Below, piece after piece: positions 40,824-62,385 of a stretch of DNA of 64,000 bases. The stretch comes from an uncultured Mollicutes bacterium. GTDB taxonomy: Bacteria > Bacillota_I > Bacilli_A > RFN20 > CAG-826. Each line of letters opens with the position of its first letter. Positions within the stretch are counted from its first letter, which is position 1. A program made the position numbers and the translations under genes. Under the pieces are notes generated by a model. That model ran no database searches and had not been told where the DNA came from. It worked only from the letters and a program-made list of their open reading frames with translations. The stretch lies in the NCBI GenBank assembly GCA_945936135.1, contig CAMESG010000003.1:62001-126000 (forward strand), in the 5' to 3' direction.

Positions 40824-42338
40824 CTAATCGCCACTGCCGTTGTAACCAATATAGAGAGGAACCCCACGTCCATCGCGGATCACATAGACATAAGGCTGGT
40901 TCAATTCGACTTTCCAAAGGTCGGTTTCCGCAGGAGCGGGAGCCCCAGCAGCCATGGAAAAGAAACTCAAGCTCGTCGCGGTGGTTCCGTCTTCGCGAAA
41001 GGAAATGTGGTTGATCTGCTTGGCCGTCTCGACCGAAATGGATGCCCCGCGGTCTCCAAAAGGCCGGTTGAAACGAACTTTTTTCCAATCAAAGAGATCA
41101 CCTAGGCCCATTCTCGTCAGGACTTCTTTCATATCCACCTTGGCAATACTTTCAAATTTGGGGACGGAGTAATCGATCTTGAGCACCGTTTCCATCCATC
41201 CATCGCCTTGCTCAGGGATGTATTCTTTCGTCCCGTCCTCGATCAAGAAGTTTCTTCCTTCATCGGAAAGCAAATCCAAAATGTTTTCATTCACCGATTT
41301 CGGGATCAGATATTGAATGGTCCCTCCTCCATAATATCGGTCATAGGCCGAAACATAACTTCCGTAATCGTAAAGTTTTACATCGAGCACTAGGTGGTTC
41401 ATATAGGTAACATCCTTCTCCTCTCCGTTTGAAAGATAGAAGGGAGCTACTTCGTTGTCTTCGGTCTTGAACACAGACCCCCAACGGACGTTGAAATTGA
41501 AGACATTCGCAAGGAAGAAGGCCGTGTCCGTATCGAATTTCGGAAGGTCGTCCCCGGAGAATAAATCCGGATCTAAACTGTTCCCTTGCATCCAAGAGAG
41601 CAACGCCGAAACATCATTTTCGTTCTCAAAATCCAAGGCATAAGCTTGAATGTAGTTCTTCGTCATGTCACTCAAGAAATTCGGAGAAACCTCCCCGAAG
41701 TCCCGATCAAGGAAGATCGCGTCGCGCATCTCGTTCCCGTTTTCCCCGGAAAGCCAATTCAATCCGCGATAAAAATGAGTTCGATTGAATTCGCGAAGCC
41801 ATGAGCCTCCCAATGCGCCCGAAAGCAAAGAAAGCGTTGAAGCATCGTCGCTGCAAAGAGAAAGATTATCCAAAAGACGATAGAGACTAACCGGGGAAAT
41901 AACCCCCGTATCTCCTGCTTTCCAATTCACACCCTTATAGATCTGATAAGCAAAATCGTTTTGAGCAACAATGTATTCCTCTGGGAGCGAGCATTTGTAT
42001 ACCGCCTCGTCGGAACTTTCCAGCATCGGCTTCTCTACTTCGTTTAACGCTTCCAAGGACTTTTGGTCGAAGGATCCATGAACGCGATGGGCGCTATAAA
42101 GGACGTCTCTCTTTTCGAATTTTGTAAAAGGGGAAATCACAAGCAGAACGATAAAGCCGATGACGCACGAGGCGGTAACGATCGATGCTTTCCGGACCCA
42201 CGTCTTGGATTTATGATGCTCTCTTGAACCTTCTTCATAGATCCTTGGATCGACCTTCAAATCTTCGAAACGAAGTTCTTCTCCGTCGATCTTGGAATCG
42301 ACATATTCTTCCAATTCATCTCTTTTTCTACGTTTCAT
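40824..42338 (-). CDS. membrane-anchored serpin, co-translated with an ECF sigma factor
   Basis: The 504-residue protein has a basic/acidic cytosolic part (residues 1-49), one transmembrane helix (VTASCVIGFIVLLVI, about 53-72) and an external serpin domain. Serpin features include ISPVSLYRLLDNLS, FFLANVFNFNVRWGSVF, VDMKEVLTRMGLGDLFD and the C-terminal strands LNQPYVYVIRDGRGVPLYIG. The reactive loop begins REDGTTATSLSFFSM, so hinge residues P17 Glu, P15 Gly, P14 Thr and P12 Ala are kept, which argues for a working inhibitor. The start overlaps the sigma gene stop (ATGA). The gene thus sits where an anti-sigma gene is expected, with the right topology for one. Whether the N-terminus binds sigma is inference. 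Confidence 0.88.
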   Translation of the reverse strand: MKRRKRDELEEYVDSKIDGEELRFEDLKVDPRIYEEGSREHHKSKTWVRKASIVTASCVIGFIVLLVISPFTKFEKRDVLYSAHRVHGSFDQKSLEALNEVEKPMLESSDEAVYKCSLPEEYIVAQNDFAYQIYKGVNWKAGDTGVISPVSLYRLLDNLSLCSDDASTLSLLSGALGGSWLREFNRTHFYRGLNWLSGENGNEMRDAIFLDRDFGEVSPNFLSDMTKNYIQAYALDFENENDVSALLSWMQGNSLDPDLFSGDDLPKFDTDTAFFLANVFNFNVRWGSVFKTEDNEVAPFYLSNGEEKDVTYMNHLVLDVKLYDYGSYVSAYDRYYGGGTIQYLIPKSVNENILDLLSDEGRNFLIEDGTKEYIPEQGDGWMETVLKIDYSVPKFESIAKVDMKEVLTRMGLGDLFDWKKVRFNRPFGDRGASISVETAKQINHISFREDGTTATSLSFFSMAAGAPAPAETDLWKVELNQPYVYVIRDGRGVPLYIGYNGSGD

Positions 42339-42898
42339 CGAAAGACCTCCTTATGAATTCTAAGTTTCTTCAAGGCGCGGCTATAGATCACCGAAACATT
42401 GCTGCGGCTCTTCTGCATCATCTTCCCGATTTCCTTCGAGGCATACCCCTGCAAGGAAAGGAGGACAATCGAAGTCTCTTCGACGCTTAAGAAGGAGAGA
42501 AGATCCGTTTCGATCCTTAGGTAGCTTGGACTCGGTTTAGCGGGAGCCTGTTCCAAAAGACCATCGGGATCATCTGCTTTTTGCTCTTCTCTTAAGCGAT
42601 CGTACGCTTTATTGGTCGCAATTTTCAGCAAATACGCCTTGGAATTGCGGAGGATTTCACGCGGTTTGTCGCGTTGAAGTAAAGCATGGAAGAAAGAGGC
42701 AAAGGCTTCATTAACCACTTCCTTGACGTCTTCTTCGTTACTTAGATGTCGTCCAACGGTGAAGAAGCAAAGGCGCTTATGACGTTCATAAAAGCATTCG
42801 AAAGCACGCTCTAAAAGGGCGGGGCTCCCGCTTTGCAGGCCCTTTAGAAGCAAGGCTTCATCCGTTCGCTTTTCTTGGCCGTGGCTCTCTTTTTCCAT
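42335..42898 (-). CDS. ECF-type RNA polymerase sigma factor
   Basis: The 187-residue protein has a sigma-2 region (FECFYERHKRLCFFTVGR, VVNEAFASFFHALL, LLKIATNKAYDRLREE) and a sigma-4 region (SVEETSIVLLSLQGYASKEI, KSRSNVSVIYSRALKKLR), separated by a Pro/Ala linker. It would direct RNA polymerase to its own regulon, probably including its own operon. The start at 42898 is chosen because TATATA lies 10 bases upstream and only 4 before an alternative ATG at 42904. There is no Shine-Dalgarno. The serpin gene follows with a 4-base overlap. Confidence 0.92.
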   Translation of the reverse strand: MEKESHGQEKRTDEALLLKGLQSGSPALLERAFECFYERHKRLCFFTVGRHLSNEEDVKEVVNEAFASFFHALLQRDKPREILRNSKAYLLKIATNKAYDRLREEQKADDPDGLLEQAPAKPSPSYLRIETDLLSFLSVEETSIVLLSLQGYASKEIGKMMQKSRSNVSVIYSRALKKLRIHKEVFR

Positions 42899-42904
42899 GT
42901 CCAT

Positions 42905-43479
42905 CCACTATATAGAACGAGCGAAAAGGGAAAAATGCTACAAAAAGTTTCTAAACCTTTCCACCATTTTATATTCAAGCAGACAAATATTAAGCGATAT
43001 CAAACCCTGTAGTCACAATCGCAAAGCATCGCGAGAATATGGCCTTTCTTCTCCTAACCCCGTTTTCGCTTGAAGGATTTCTCCCTTGGGATCTTTCGTT
43101 TCTTTGCAGTTCACTGAAAATTCAAATTTGTATTCTTTTTTTCAAATATTCGTTTAGATGGTCTCGAAGTCAAAAAAACGAAACAGCGCTTTTATAAGTC
43201 TACTCATATCGACATTTTCTCCGTTTCCTATTTTCAAGGTAATTTGTTTCGGGTTTTCGAGGAAGTTTGTTTCGGGTTTTCAAGGAATCAGCTAGGTATT
43301 TTAAAATAATTTCAAAGGATCAAATCCATAATGAAATGGGCGCAAATCGAAACATTCGGACATTTATTCAGCTGTCCACAAAATGAGGACAACTGAAATC
43401 CATTCACAAAGCACGAAAAAAGAGGATATTTTCAATCCTCTCAATCGTTATGTTGTCTCATGTAAGAGGTTTTAATACA
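42905..43479. other. 575-base spacer between the sigma operon promoter and the DpnII cassette
   Basis: No open frame is supported on either strand. It contains a two-copy 23-base tandem repeat at 43243-43288 and grows more AT-rich toward the right, where the repeats that flank the restriction cassette begin. It may hold the far end of whatever brought the cassette in. Confidence 0.4.
43243..43288. repeat. two-copy 23-base tandem repeat
   Basis: Units 43243-43265 and 43266-43288 begin with TTTGTTTCGGGTTTTC and differ at two positions. No function is evident. Confidence 0.6.
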
Positions 43480-43565
43480 ATTTTAGCACCCCTACCTTAA
43501 ATCGTGTAAAGTTTATCACCCTTTAAAGCAAATCGTGTAAAAATTAGCACCTTTTAGCACCCTTA
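43480..43565. repeat. left flanking repeat array of the DpnII cassette
   Basis: About three imperfect copies of a roughly 30-base unit, built from ATCGTGTAAA and TTAGCACCC separated by spacers, one with TTTAAAGCAA. The same units in the same orientation lie at 46371-46454, on the other side of the cassette. Confidence 0.7.
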
Positions 43566-44459
43566 TACTTTCTGCATTCCTTTTATTCTCTCTTCGATAT
43601 TTAAAAGTTTTTCAATTGCACCATTTTCTAAATCTTGAATGTTATAAACTGTATCTAAAACATCACAAGTTTCTTCCAAGTTGTGTCTTGCACTATTCCA
43701 TCCAATACCATCAGTGAACCAAACAAATGTAAAGCCGCTTATATTTTTAGATTCTAAAGCCAATGTTTTGTAGCTTCTAGCAGTTTCATTTAACTTAGAA
43801 CCTCCACCGCTATAAAAATTACATTCACATGCATATATTTCTCCGAAAGACCCTTTAAAAACAAAATCGAATCTCTTTTCAGTTTTATCTTGATTACTAA
43901 TTGCAGATAAATCTAATCCAAACTTTTTTTCAACTTCAGATTTATTTAATTCTTTAAAATATGTTTTATCTTTTTCTAAGCCAGCTCTTATAAGATAAGA
44001 TTCAACCAAATCTTCCATGGCATCACCGGTTCGATTCTTTCTACCATTTGTATCCATTCCAACTTCAACACCCAAGACATAATCAACCAGATTATTAATA
44101 ATATGGTTTTGAAGCAAATCAAATAGTCCACAATTCTTCATAAATAAAGCATATTGATCAACTGAATAATTCATTTTTATAAAATTGAAAACATATGTTT
44201 CCTTAGAATCAATAATCTTTATTTCTTTTTCTCTTTTTGCTAAAAGAATAGGTATTGCTTTAATCACCTCTGGATATTTAATTATCAGAGATTTAAATTC
44301 GTTTTCAATATTTCTTGATCCAATAAGTGAGTTTAAAATATTCAACTCGACTTTCAATTTATTTACATTTTCATATACTTTTTCAAAATCAGTATAATAG
44401 CCCCAAGTAGCAATACTATCTTTCATAGTTAATAACCATGATTCAAAATTCTTTTTCAT
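43563..44459 (-). CDS. dpnB: DpnII-type restriction endonuclease (GATC)
   Basis: The 298-residue enzyme resembles R.DpnII/MboI-type nucleases. It has SWLLTMKDSIATWGYYTDF, NGRKNRTGDAMEDLVESYL, and a PD-(D/E)xK-like core with KRFDFVFKGSFGEIYACECN followed by FYSGGGSKLNETARSYKTL. It should cut unmethylated GATC in double-stranded DNA. It is the last gene of the dpnM-dpnA-dpnB order and abuts the dpnA-like gene without a gap. Its codon use is AT-rich compared with the core genes, consistent with horizontal acquisition. Confidence 0.88.
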   Translation of the reverse strand: MKKNFESWLLTMKDSIATWGYYTDFEKVYENVNKLKVELNILNSLIGSRNIENEFKSLIIKYPEVIKAIPILLAKREKEIKIIDSKETYVFNFIKMNYSVDQYALFMKNCGLFDLLQNHIINNLVDYVLGVEVGMDTNGRKNRTGDAMEDLVESYLIRAGLEKDKTYFKELNKSEVEKKFGLDLSAISNQDKTEKRFDFVFKGSFGEIYACECNFYSGGGSKLNETARSYKTLALESKNISGFTFVWFTDGIGWNSARHNLEETCDVLDTVYNIQDLENGAIEKLLNIEERIKGMQKV

Positions 44460-45239
44460 TTATTTAACTCCTTTCGCTTCTTGATATCTTTTTAATGTAA
44501 CGTCTAAATATGCTTTTTCAATATCAATTCCAATGTATTTTCTATTCAAAATTGAAGCAACAATACCAGTTGTCCCACTTCCATTAAACGGATCTAAGAT
44601 TAAATCCCCTTCTTTTGTGGAAGCTAATATTATTCGTTCAAGAACTGATATTGGTTTTTGCGTTGGATGCTTTCCATATTTTTTCTCATCTTTTTTAGGA
44701 AGATTTAATGTCCATACATCCTTCATTTGCTTTCCGTTATTTATTTCTTTCATTAATTCGTAATTGAAATAATGTTTTCCTTTTTTCCCTTTGTCACTGA
44801 TTTTTCTAGCCCATAAAATTGTTTCAGTCGAATTAGTGAAACATCTACAAGCTAGATTAGGAGTTGGATTTGGTTTTTGCCATGTAATGTTGTTAATAAT
44901 TGAAAAGCCTTCTAATTCAAGCGCCACCCCAACTGAATAGATATTATGAAAAGTCCCGCTAATCCATATAGTTCCATCATCTTTAAGAACTTTCCTGCAA
45001 GCTCTTATCCATTTTCGATTAAAATTAAGTTTCTCTTTTGACGAAATACATTTATCCCATTCGGCTTTATCAACTGATACTTGTCTACCAGAGTGGCAAG
45101 AAACGCCACCACTAGATAAAAAATAAGGTGGATCAGCGAATATCATATCAATAGATTTTTCACCAATCTTTTTTAATACTTTTAGGCAATCACCAAAATA
45201 TAAAGTAAAATCCTTATCTTTAAAATAGATGTTATTCAT
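44460..45239 (-). CDS. dpnA: DpnA-like adenine-N6 DNA methyltransferase
   Basis: The 259-residue beta-class methyltransferase has the catalytic motif DMIFADPPYFLSSGG near residue 32. The SAM-binding motif LILDPFNGSGTTGIVA lies in the C-terminal part, and KHPTQKPISVLERII lies before it. In the pneumococcal DpnII system DpnA methylates GATC also in single-stranded DNA, protecting incoming DNA during transformation. The gene overlaps dpnM by 8 bases and is followed directly by the endonuclease gene. The ribosome site is inside dpnM. Confidence 0.92.
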   Translation of the reverse strand: MNNIYFKDKDFTLYFGDCLKVLKKIGEKSIDMIFADPPYFLSSGGVSCHSGRQVSVDKAEWDKCISSKEKLNFNRKWIRACRKVLKDDGTIWISGTFHNIYSVGVALELEGFSIINNITWQKPNPTPNLACRCFTNSTETILWARKISDKGKKGKHYFNYELMKEINNGKQMKDVWTLNLPKKDEKKYGKHPTQKPISVLERIILASTKEGDLILDPFNGSGTTGIVASILNRKYIGIDIEKAYLDVTLKRYQEAKGVK

Positions 45240-46059
45240 AATTAGTAATAATCACCTCTTTAACATTGCCTCTTCCATCAGCTTTAGAATTTATCATTCT
45301 TTTTGCTTCTACAATATGAATGTTAAAATCTTTGTACAATTCTCTAATAAAATCTGTGTTGTGATTACTAAGCATCACATATACTCCTTTATTTGATAAT
45401 GCTTTATATACATTTGATAAGCGAACTTGTTCATCTTTTTCAAAAGGATTTTTAGCATAAGAAGTGAATGAATTTTTATTATCCCAAGTGTCATAAGGTG
45501 GATCAAAATACACAAAATCACCCTTTTTTGCATTTCTTACAGCTTCTTCAAAATCACCATTCAAAATTTCATAGCTCGATGAGTTGAAGAAATTATATAA
45601 ATCATTAAGATTAGACTCTTCAAAACATGTTACTTTTTTCTTTTTTCCAGAAGGAACGTTAAAATAACCCTTAGCGTTTACTCTATATAAGCCATTGAAA
45701 CACGCCTTATTTAAATAAATCATTCTTGCCGCTCTAGCATGGCGAGGTAATTCAACAAAGTCTTTTGATTTATCTAACTCTCTAACTTGATAATAATGTT
45801 CTTCTGAATGTTCATTTTCATGAACTTTTAACGATTCTTTTAGAAGTTCAAAATCGCTTTTATTCGTTAATGATTTATATGCCTCAATTAATTCAGAATT
45901 AAAATCGTTAATCGTAAATTCTTTTGGCTTAATCTCAAATAAAAGAGCACCACCACCAACAAAAGGTTCAAAATATCGATTGTATTCTTTTGGCATTAAT
46001 TCCTTTATTTTAGATAATAACTGGGTTTTCCCACCAGCCCATTTAACAAAAGGATGCAT
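45232..46059 (-). CDS. dpnM: DpnM/Dam-like adenine-N6 DNA methyltransferase
   Basis: The 275-residue alpha-class (D12) enzyme begins MHPFVKWAGGKTQLL, the SAM-binding motif of Dam, followed by YFEPFVGGGALLFEI, the catalytic DFVYFDPPYDTWD near residue 180 and VYVMLSNHNTDFI. It methylates adenine in GATC on double-stranded DNA and protects the host from the endonuclease encoded two genes later. It starts one base after the stop of the HTH gene. Two GATC methylases with distinct folds plus the nuclease exactly reproduce the DpnII arrangement. Confidence 0.93.
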   Translation of the reverse strand: MHPFVKWAGGKTQLLSKIKELMPKEYNRYFEPFVGGGALLFEIKPKEFTINDFNSELIEAYKSLTNKSDFELLKESLKVHENEHSEEHYYQVRELDKSKDFVELPRHARAARMIYLNKACFNGLYRVNAKGYFNVPSGKKKKVTCFEESNLNDLYNFFNSSSYEILNGDFEEAVRNAKKGDFVYFDPPYDTWDNKNSFTSYAKNPFEKDEQVRLSNVYKALSNKGVYVMLSNHNTDFIRELYKDFNIHIVEAKRMINSKADGRGNVKEVIITNYE

Positions 46060-46060
46060 A

Positions 46061-46264
46061 TTATAACGCCTCCATATCTATGTTATTTTCTTTGCATATC
46101 TTAGCAAGTTTACGCTTTGCTTTCATAGTCGGTTCAAAATGACCTTGTTCCCATCTATTAACTGATGCAAAAGATACCTCAATCATCTCAGCTAATTCTT
46201 CTTGAGTTAAAAACAATTTACTTCTTAATGTCTTAATTATTTTTGGCCAATTCATTATTATCAC
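46061..46264 (-). CDS. XRE-type controller protein of the restriction-modification cassette
   Basis: The 67-residue protein is a bare Cro/C1 helix-turn-helix: WPKIIKTLRSKLFLTQEELA, MIEVSFASVNRWEQGHFEPT, then a closing helix. It lies first in the operon, one base before dpnM, in the position of C proteins that delay nuclease expression until methylation is complete. It probably binds its own promoter region at 46265-46330. Confidence 0.85.
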   Translation of the reverse strand: MIIMNWPKIIKTLRSKLFLTQEELAEMIEVSFASVNRWEQGHFEPTMKAKRKLAKICKENNIDMEAL

Positions 46265-60189: not shown

Positions 60190-62385
60190 TTAGTCCTCGG
60201 AATCGTCGCCGTCTTTCGCGGGCGGGATCTCGGCGACCCAGTCACGCGGTTCGACTTTGCCTTGTTCGAGGCCGTTCTTCTCCATGACGTTCGCGATCAA
60301 TTCTTTGGCGCGACGGACAGAGAGCTCGCTCTTGACCTTGAAGACGAGCGGGATGTCTTTGTAGACGCCCTTGTGGCCAGCATCCTGGACCGGAATCGGC
60401 GAATTCTCGTAATCCTTCGGATCGAGGGCGAAGTAGAGCTTGAGGCTCTTGCCAGCGATCGTGATGCGGACAAAGGTCACTTTGTGGAGGCGGAAGGTAT
60501 CGCCCTTGTTGGAGATGCGGCTCTTAACGCCGTAGGACATGATTTCCGACTTGAGGTCGTTGTAGTTGTCCTTCATCTCTTTGTCGGCATCGGCCATTCT
60601 CGTTTGGAAGGGGATGCGGACGATCTTCTCGTGGGGAGGAAGATCCGGATTGACGGCGCCGACGACGCGAGCTTTCGGCTCTTCGGGGACGGGTTCCGGT
60701 GCCGGTTCTTCTTTCTTCACTTCCGCCGGAGCGTTGGTGTGGACGACGACAGTGATGGTCGGGTTGGTCGCCGGAGCGGGAGCGGGTTCTTCCTTCTTCA
60801 CTTCAACGACGGGTTCTTCCTTCTTCGGCTCTTCCACCGTCTTTTCTTCTGCCGGGGCTTTGACGACGACGGTTACCGGTTCAACCTTCTCTTCTTTCAA
60901 AGGTGGGACGACGATCATTTCTTGACGAATGATTTCGCGGATAAGATCCGGGGTCAATTCATTCTTCGGCTCGGTCGGTTCGCGACGAGCGAGTTCTTCG
61001 TTGATGATTTGGCGGATTTCAAGGGCGGTGAGAGCGGGTTCCTTTTCTTCCTTGACGGGTTCGGGTTCCGGCGCTTTTTCCGCGGCTTCCTTTTCCGCGT
61101 AGAAGGAACGGATTTCGGTTGCGACGACATTGCGAACATCTTCTTCACAAAGTGGCTTTTCCGGTTCGGGTTCCGGTTCGGGTTCCGGCTCTTCCACTTT
61201 CTTGGAGGCGGCGAGCTCTTCGGCGATGATCGCGCGAACTTCTTCGGCGGTCAAAGCGGGAACGGGGGTCTCTTCGACCAAGACGTCACCTTCATCAGGG
61301 GTCAAGGTTTTGGAGAGTTCTTCCGCGAGAATGCGGCGGACATCTTCCGCGGTCAAAGCCGGAGTTTCAGCTTTTGCGGGGGAAGGAACAGAGATGACGA
61401 TCGGTTGCTTCTCTTCTTCCTTCGGGGCCATCTCTTCGCGGACGATCTTGCGGATGTCTTCAGCGCTCAAAGGCTTCTCGCCAGTGATGGCGCCTTGGAT
61501 TTCAGAGAGAGGAACTTGGCCGTTCTTGCCGCGAGCATTGGTTTCTTGCTGCGCGGGGCTATAGGTATTGATGTATTGGACAAGGAGCGGGCCTTGGATG
61601 CCTTGGGCCGTGGCATAAGCCGGGCCGGCGGCAGCGGCAGCGGCATCGGTGCCAGTGGCGTTCTTGCCATTGGGCACAGCGGCGACGCCAAGAGCAGCGG
61701 CGATTTCTTCTTCGCTCGCGGGAGGAATGACCTCGTCGTCATGGACAACGACGACATCGTCTTTCTCCGACGGGAGCAAGTCGGCTTTGCCCGCTTGGGC
61801 AGCGGCCTTCTTTTTCGCTTTGGATTTGCCCGTGACCATATCTTCAAAGGCACCGATGATGCCCATGACGTAGCCAACGCCAACAAGGAGAACGATGAAG
61901 TAGGCGAAGAGGGAGATCAAGAGAACGGGAACATTGCCCGCGGCACTCTGAAAGAATTGGGTGCAAAGGTCGAACCAACCCCATTGGCTAGAAGCATGAT
62001 AGGAACCATTGACGACGGTGAACGGTTCAGCGACGTGGGGGTGCAAGAGAAGCGTGAAACCAACGATCGCGATGACCGTGTCAAGAAGCAAGAAAAGGCT
62101 CGGGAAAAGGCCCGAGGGGCGCTTCTTGGCGATGCAGACGATGAACGACGCCAAGAAGATCAAGACGCCGAGCCCGCCCAAGGCGAGGATCAAGATTTGC
62201 GGCAGCACAAGGCTTGAGAAGTCGAAAAGACCTTTCCACGTGCTGACCAAAACGCTCCACGTAATGCCTTCAAGCGTGTAGAACGTGGCATTCGGGAACA
62301 TCATCGGGAACGTATAGAAAAGCGCTCCACCAATCAGCATGAGAACAAGTCCGATCGAAGTGAGAATCGAAACAGATTTTTTCAT
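60190..62385 (-). CDS. membrane protein with six degenerate helical repeats and an uncharacterised C-terminal domain
   Basis: The 731-residue protein has four N-terminal spans (ILTSIGLVLMLIGGALFYTF onward). A long low-complexity middle rich in Pro, Glu, Val and Ala carries at least six copies of a helical motif of the form L(S/T)xE(D/E)(V/I)RxIxxEEL (LSAEDIRKIVREEM, LTAEDVRRILAEEL, LTAEEVRAIIAEEL, LCEEDVRNVVATEI, LTALEIRQIINEEL, LTPDLIREIIRQEM). The C-terminal 125 residues form a compact domain (VRIPFQTRMADADKEMKDNY, SRISNKGDTFRLHKVTFVRI, LKLYFALDPKDYEN) that I recall from other uncharacterised Bacillota proteins. TATAAT and GGAGGT precede the start. Possibly a membrane-tethered scaffold. Confidence 0.7.
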   Translation of the reverse strand: MKKSVSILTSIGLVLMLIGGALFYTFPMMFPNATFYTLEGITWSVLVSTWKGLFDFSSLVLPQILILALGGLGVLIFLASFIVCIAKKRPSGLFPSLFLLLDTVIAIVGFTLLLHPHVAEPFTVVNGSYHASSQWGWFDLCTQFFQSAAGNVPVLLISLFAYFIVLLVGVGYVMGIIGAFEDMVTGKSKAKKKAAAQAGKADLLPSEKDDVVVVHDDEVIPPASEEEIAAALGVAAVPNGKNATGTDAAAAAAGPAYATAQGIQGPLLVQYINTYSPAQQETNARGKNGQVPLSEIQGAITGEKPLSAEDIRKIVREEMAPKEEEKQPIVISVPSPAKAETPALTAEDVRRILAEELSKTLTPDEGDVLVEETPVPALTAEEVRAIIAEELAASKKVEEPEPEPEPEPEKPLCEEDVRNVVATEIRSFYAEKEAAEKAPEPEPVKEEKEPALTALEIRQIINEELARREPTEPKNELTPDLIREIIRQEMIVVPPLKEEKVEPVTVVVKAPAEEKTVEEPKKEEPVVEVKKEEPAPAPATNPTITVVVHTNAPAEVKKEEPAPEPVPEEPKARVVGAVNPDLPPHEKIVRIPFQTRMADADKEMKDNYNDLKSEIMSYGVKSRISNKGDTFRLHKVTFVRITIAGKSLKLYFALDPKDYENSPIPVQDAGHKGVYKDIPLVFKVKSELSVRRAKELIANVMEKNGLEQGKVEPRDWVAEIPPAKDGDDSED

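Follow-up and report, generated by a model that had tools for sequence, protein, structure and literature searches.

An extracytoplasmic function (ECF) sigma factor and, beside it, a membrane-anchored serpin of 504 residues that is very probably its anti-sigma factor are encoded in the stretch of DNA analysed here, namely 64,000 nucleotides from an uncultured Mollicutes bacterium (positions 62,001 to 126,000 of contig CAMESG010000003.1, assembly GCA_945936135.1), referred to as the window. Taken as a whole, the locus is best explained as an ECF sigma factor controlled by a membrane anti-sigma factor that has a serpin as its sensor, and we consider this explanation probable. That cleavage of the reactive loop acts as the trigger is plausible and slightly favoured, and both hinge and fold are compatible with it. 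Computational support exists for the pair and its conservation, for the serpin fold, for a hinge compatible with insertion, for covariation of the tail with the sigma factor, for exchange of ectodomains and for a shared promoter.

The sigma-serpin locus

The features of the locus are as follows.

42335..42904, minus strand: ECF sigma factor gene, 189 residues from the first ATG or 187 residues from the ATG at 42898 (Pfam and NCBIfam)
40824..42338, minus strand: membrane-anchored serpin gene in the anti-sigma position, 504 residues (open reading frame, Pfam Serpin, AlphaFold model and PDB fold search)
42183..42338, minus strand: cytosolic tail, residues 1 to about 52, proposed sigma-binding module (alignment, covariation, joint loss and ectodomain swap)
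42126..42182, minus strand: single transmembrane span, residues about 53-71 (hydropathy and model helix)
40845..41966, minus strand: external serpin domain, residues 125-498 (Pfam, predicted local distance difference test (pLDDT) and PDB matches)
40923..40994, minus strand: reactive-centre loop, residues 449-472, with hinge EDGTTATSLS (P17-P8) and centre FFSMAAGAPAPAET (relatives' alignment and model)
42910..42941, minus strand: candidate autoregulated ECF promoter, GTAGCATTT - 13 bases - CGTTCTATAT, adjoining the sigma start upstream (by eye)

An original prediction, made from the sequence, had placed a sigma gene at 42335-42898, and this was confirmed by Pfam and NCBIfam. The first ATG of the reading frame is at 42904 and 42898 is the second, in frame; the start at 42898 is quite plausible, because a -10-like block ends just 5 bases ahead of 42904. 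The protein has the ECF layout of regions 2 and 4 only, both above cut-off (Sigma70_r2, E = 2.7e-7, and Sigma70_r4, E = 5.8e-7, in Pfam; sigma70-ECF in NCBIfam, 57.2 bits with a cut-off of 42.9). The stop of the sigma gene and the start of the serpin gene share an ATGA overlap, which had been proposed and is evident from the open reading frames.

The serpin protein runs from a cytosolic tail of about 52 residues through one span and a stalk to the external serpin domain, which matches PF00079 across residues 125-498 (E = 3.1e-27). Hydropathy reaches its maximum of 2.53 at residue 62, and AlphaFold models a membrane helix at residues 47-67. Hydropathy, Pfam, AlphaFold and the PDB fold search therefore agree with the topology put forward in the original prediction (a short cytosolic N-terminus, one span and an external serpin). 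Within the tail, the motif ELRFEDLKVDP aligns with LSFDxxQLEPN of relatives.

Conservation of the pair

A serpin was found in 120 of the 279 genomes of the order, and 111 loci were compared. All 67 serpins that have a long tail and an internal span are directly preceded by a same-strand ECF sigma gene, with a spacing of -4 in 28 of the 67, and they come from 20 genera and 4 families of the order (genome table). When serpins were scored for a span in mid-protein, 67 of 69 were sigma-linked, whereas none of the 44 others were (a Fisher test gives p = 2e-29, which is descriptive only, the rows being related); the two span-scored serpins lacking an upstream sigma gene are start-codon artefacts. 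Among the serpins of these loci with an N-terminal signal peptide, none has an ECF sigma gene directly upstream (0/44 secreted).

The search for relatives used a 15-row subset of the 54-row serpin alignment, and all 54 of these relatives match PF00079 at E up to 0.1. A class-wide search found the pair in four further genomes, from another order and with the same -4 overlap. A phylum-wide search gave matches from the same class only, which says nothing about the spread beyond the class. Conserved sigma-serpin neighbours, for which the original prediction had called, are thus present in the 67 loci of the order and the four genomes outside it, and the arrangement is not due to chance.

The pair in the window is divergent, with a best identity of about 31% for the sigma factor and 29-30% for the serpin, so that the link between the two genes is old. 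The sigma-linked serpins of clade E are divergent too: L221 has no Pfam serpin match and was identified by our own profile, while L105 gave a serpin match of E = 1e-8 in the genome search. The named relatives are metagenome-assembled genomes labelled Erysipelotrichaceae, Bacillales or Bacilli, their sources being rumen, omasum, horse faeces and the like.

Other serpin loci were observed in the course of this comparison. Tandem arrays of three secreted serpins each occur at L087 and L090, in genomes G127 and G128, and a decayed serpin gene with eleven in-frame stops lies at G153:C17:12618-13737. In family f17 of the same class, L148-L152 are membrane serpins of 530-640 residues with no adjoining sigma gene, in which the serpin match is broken into two pieces by an insertion.

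The cytosolic tail belongs with the sigma factor

Distances between tails follow those between sigma factors when serpin distance is held constant (partial Mantel r = 0.65, p = 0.0005), and do not follow those between serpins when sigma distance is held constant (0.03, p = 0.29). The main clade by itself gives partial correlations of 0.50 for tail and sigma factor versus 0.23 for tail and serpin. Two serpins lacking a sigma gene have a changed N-terminus: in L053, which belongs to the main clade, tail and span are gone and a lipoprotein signal is found instead, and in L072 the tail is shortened.

The outer part of the protein can be exchanged. The sigma factor of L276 is 59% identical to those of L105 and L221, and their partners have homologous tails and spans (E = 2e-8 and 9e-11); the ectodomain is a serpin in L105 and L221, and a short, unrelated sequence in L276. 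Other ECF sigma factors of the genus are likewise paired with proteins laid out in this way, whose outer parts differ. When the main-clade tail profile was compared with 13 non-serpin partners there was one clear match, to L225 (beaten by 0 of 200 shuffles), which becomes weak after counting tests. The ECF partners at L231 and L235 are just 108-109 residues long, and consist of a cytosolic tail, a span and a short outer piece.

It might be supposed that the membrane serpin is simply a target of the sigma factor, a tethered protective inhibitor with the tail as an anchor, and that the sigma factor is controlled in some other way. Sigma factors are often found in one operon with their targets, and the membrane serpins L148-L152 manage without a sigma gene. 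However, the tail covaries with the sigma factor independently of the serpin, tail and sigma factor are lost together, and the same kind of tail carries a non-serpin ectodomain beside a closely related sigma factor. This alternative is consequently very improbable.

AlphaFold was also applied to a fused protein, in which the sigma factor and serpin of L081 were read in frame with the stop read as Gly. Alignments for it were made with MAFFT, and many sets of rows misplaced serpin-only rows onto the sigma factor; the sets were varied until the tails aligned, and were chosen by alignment and not by the outcome of the fold. In the fused model the first 31 residues of the tail have pLDDT of about 70-83 (blocks of 83, 70 and 83) and in the window protein alone the blocks of the tail have 65, 54, 46, 41 and 48, although these are different proteins with different alignments and the comparison is suggestive only.

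Covariation, joint loss, the ectodomain swap and the higher confidence of the tail in the sigma-fused model all point to the tail as the sigma-facing part. The partner gene lies downstream of the ECF gene, often overlapping it, and its N-terminal part coevolves with the sigma factor, as is characteristic of anti-sigma factors. The original prediction had put the serpin protein in the anti-sigma slot, and linkage together with these observations supports that assignment.

Serpin fold and reactive loop

The serpin domain was modelled with pLDDT mostly above 90. In the AlphaFold model of the window protein, residues 461-471 of the loop are disordered and the hinge, residues 451-458, forms a strand. 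The best match in the PDB fold search had E = 5e-24, and the nearest structures are mainly cleaved or latent serpins, with tengpin (2pef, 2pee) and conserpin (5cdz) among the closest solved folds.

The EDGTTAT hinge noted in the original prediction is indeed present, at residues 449-455. An alignment of 47 main-clade relatives has Glu at P17 and Gly at P15 in 47/47, Thr or Ser at P14 in 45/47, and Ser or Thr at P10 in 45/47, while P12, P10 and P8 are small or β-branched. Most members have 30-32 residues between P15 and the loop's end. On insertion of a serpin loop, the even-numbered residues face the core, and because it is P14, P12, P10 and P8 that are small, the hinge looks as if it has been kept for insertion. 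The reactive-loop hinge thus looks to be under a constraint compatible with insertion, though it is not canonical. The centre of the loop varies, with many Ala, Gly, Ser and Thr residues, and a loop of such small residues suggests elastase-like or subtilisin-like attackers.

Some serpins of other lineages are non-inhibitory, and the hinge here departs from the canonical sequence. The protein could be an anti-sigma factor whose serpin domain senses by binding (the partner being a ligand, a protein or a surface) or by turning latent spontaneously under stress, and so exposes the stalk in the manner of RsiV, whose activation depends on binding and not on the enzyme's cut (PMC5014341). The invariant P17 Glu and P15 Gly, the small residues at P14, P12, P10 and P8 and the variable loop centre are however the marks of an insertion loop, and we regard this alternative as unlikely.

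Promoter and regulon

Just upstream of most sigma genes of the pair is a promoter of two blocks, CGACAAAA or CGAACGTTT followed by TGTCTTATT or CGTCTTAATA, always separated by 13 bases. The motif scores 15.8 bits per sequence, versus 11.1-11.8 in shuffles. In its strict CGAC type it was found in 20 of 25 genomes (22 matches, versus 1 control match), and with one mismatch allowed it precedes the pair in 25/25 genomes (32 matches in all, versus 5 control). A promoter motif shared upstream of the pair, for which the original prediction had suggested looking, is therefore present. The candidate promoter in the window has the 9-13-10 geometry of the relatives.

The regulon appears narrow, because 20 of the 22 strict matches lie at the promoter of the pair: besides the trap, it would include a free serpin in at least one case. 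This case is in G090, where an extra strict match precedes a secreted lipoprotein serpin (L256). A further strict match, in G181, precedes L257:1551-2123, which encodes a 190-residue lipoprotein of no known family and is a possible second output.

A separate and broader ECF regulon was observed in genus g25, with the promoter TAGC(A/G)nnTT-13-CGTCTnA (L276, L259-L288). It has 1-12 sites per genome, mostly ahead of lipoproteins, secreted serpins included. The only promoter of this type found ahead of a sigma gene is that of L276, whose sigma factor has the short non-serpin partner. That the pair's sigma factor might also control the secreted serpins in genera g25 and g31 was considered and for the most part rejected, as these have the TAGC-type promoter.

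An operon that drives its own promoter would also suit a serpin that shields the anti-sigma factor, by inhibiting the proteases that cut its stalk. The sigma factor would then be released only once proteases outnumber the serpin, which would act as a gauge of capacity; in the SerRK/SerU system of Bifidobacterium breve, serpin output rises when protease exceeds inhibitor (PMC7822027). Shielding does not, however, require the serpin to be on the same chain as the sigma-binding tail, and sigma-free secreted serpins occur in the same genomes. We consider such a shield improbable.

Probable repeated coupling of serpins to sigma factors

A tree of 131 serpin domains was constructed; it is a quick tree, which does not distinguish gain from loss. 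The sigma-linked serpins form a main clade, which includes that of the window, and several separate clades, some of them nested within secreted serpins. The tree needs eleven changes of the sigma-linked label, at least six of which are forced by well-supported (starred) branches. Clades B, C, D and F, which are among the smaller ones, recur as groups in the sigma tree, where ECF sigma factors with non-serpin partners are interleaved. The simpler reading, as compared with repeated loss, is that serpins were recruited onto anti-sigma tails more than once.

Genomic context

The genome to which the window belongs (1.23 Mb, 13 contigs) has one serpin only. It encodes one other clear ECF sigma factor, which has an overlapping 360-residue membrane partner of its own. 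The original prediction recognised that a separate anti-sigma gene elsewhere would count against it; no spare anti-sigma factor was seen in this genome, the other ECF sigma factor being already partnered. An M50 site-2 protease is encoded at G000:C7:27231 (E = 2.8e-47).

A CBS-domain gene lies downstream of the sigma-serpin pair. Directly upstream of the sigma gene, at 43563-46264 of the window, is a DpnII-type restriction-modification set, comprising a DpnII endonuclease (PF04556, E = 3e-105), two adenine/N4 methylases and a small helix-turn-helix regulator.

Proposed mechanism

What follows on how the tail binds the sigma factor, on protease inhibition, on the sequence of cuts and on which protease is involved is inferred. 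The cytosolic tail of about 52 residues would hold the sigma factor, the single span would carry the signal, and the external serpin would be the sensor. A serine (or cysteine) protease from outside, of a kind that accepts small residues, would cut the reactive loop, which would then insert into sheet A, and the trapped protease would swing toward the membrane-proximal pole, close to the membrane-linked N-terminus. The altered serpin, or the protease attached to it, may expose the stalk to a putative site-1 cut, after which the M50 site-2 protease could cut the span. Destruction of the tail would free the sigma factor to transcribe its own operon, so that more of the serpin trap would be made, together with a secreted serpin in some relatives.

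Several observations weigh against this interpretation, besides the limits of the tail models given above. The tail matches no known anti-sigma domain: among the 54 members Pfam gave one weak match to Sigma_reg_N (E = 0.011), and an ASDI or zf-HC2 domain (class I anti-sigma/ZAS) was not found. In the hinge, P11 is usually Lys or Arg and P9 is Val, Ile or Leu, which differs from the canonical inhibitory hinge ExGTEAAAA (PMC8233489). The promoter in the window is of a divergent type and was assigned by eye, and the profile gives the window gene only 7.3 bits, at another place. The original prediction had also suggested looking for the promoter motif elsewhere, and no second target was found in the window's own genome.

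A one-shot mechanical switch, in which the irreversible change from stressed to relaxed form after loop cleavage directly frees an ECF sigma factor, has in our judgement about an even chance of being correct. Such a switch would count proteases covalently and report the count as gene expression, and would have been built repeatedly in gut Bacilli by placing serpin domains onto existing anti-sigma tails. If the trigger is as proposed, bacterial serpins, whose roles have been described as enigmatic (PMC8233489), gain a second job as receptors, and ECF signalling gains a sensor of enzyme activity rather than of binding. The way in which Bacilli of rumen and gut notice proteases of host, diet or competitors would thereby be explained, and a ready-made protease biosensor would be to hand.

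Comparison with known systems

The original prediction knew of no described switch of this kind. In the literature searched for serpin together with anti-sigma, extracytoplasmic function or sigma factor (titles and abstracts, subscription papers being outside the scope), a described sigma-serpin pair was likewise not found. Tengpin and conserpin are inhibitory serpins of bacterial type with folds close to that of the window serpin, and neither is known to be linked with a sigma factor. The metastable state of tengpin is maintained by a segment at its N-terminus (PMC12702362), and for this reason coupling of the N-terminal stalk to a conformational switch is plausible.

The closest likeness in design is to SigV/RsiV of Bacillus subtilis (PMC5014341, PMC4183432), where the anti-sigma factor likewise combines an outer domain with a single span and a short part in the cytosol. 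RsiV is both a receptor for and an inhibitor of lysozyme (PMC5014341): its outer domain binds and inhibits the attacking enzyme, its operon is autoregulated, and site-1 and then site-2 cuts follow, to which the serpin pair may be likened. Unlike the serpin, the outer domain of RsiV binds lysozyme and the signal is binding itself, whereas a one-shot covalent trap is proposed here. Neither an RsiV-type ectodomain nor a sequence relation to RsiV was found in the window protein or the 54 members, in which Pfam matched the serpin family alone.

Class I (ASDI) and class II (CnrY-like) anti-sigma factors (PMC7406223) resemble the serpin protein in having an N-terminal cytosolic sigma-binding part that coevolves with the ECF sigma factor, and outer sensor domains that vary between groups. 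They differ in that the tail here has about 50 residues, one helix and a short motif, with no Pfam anti-sigma domain passing. The SerRK/SerU system of the gut bacterium Bifidobacterium breve (PMC7822027) is also alike, with a protease-induced serpin and a serpin-dependent autoregulatory loop. There, however, control is by a two-component system and the serpin is a separate protein, whereas in the present pair the serpin domain belongs to the presumed anti-sigma factor itself.
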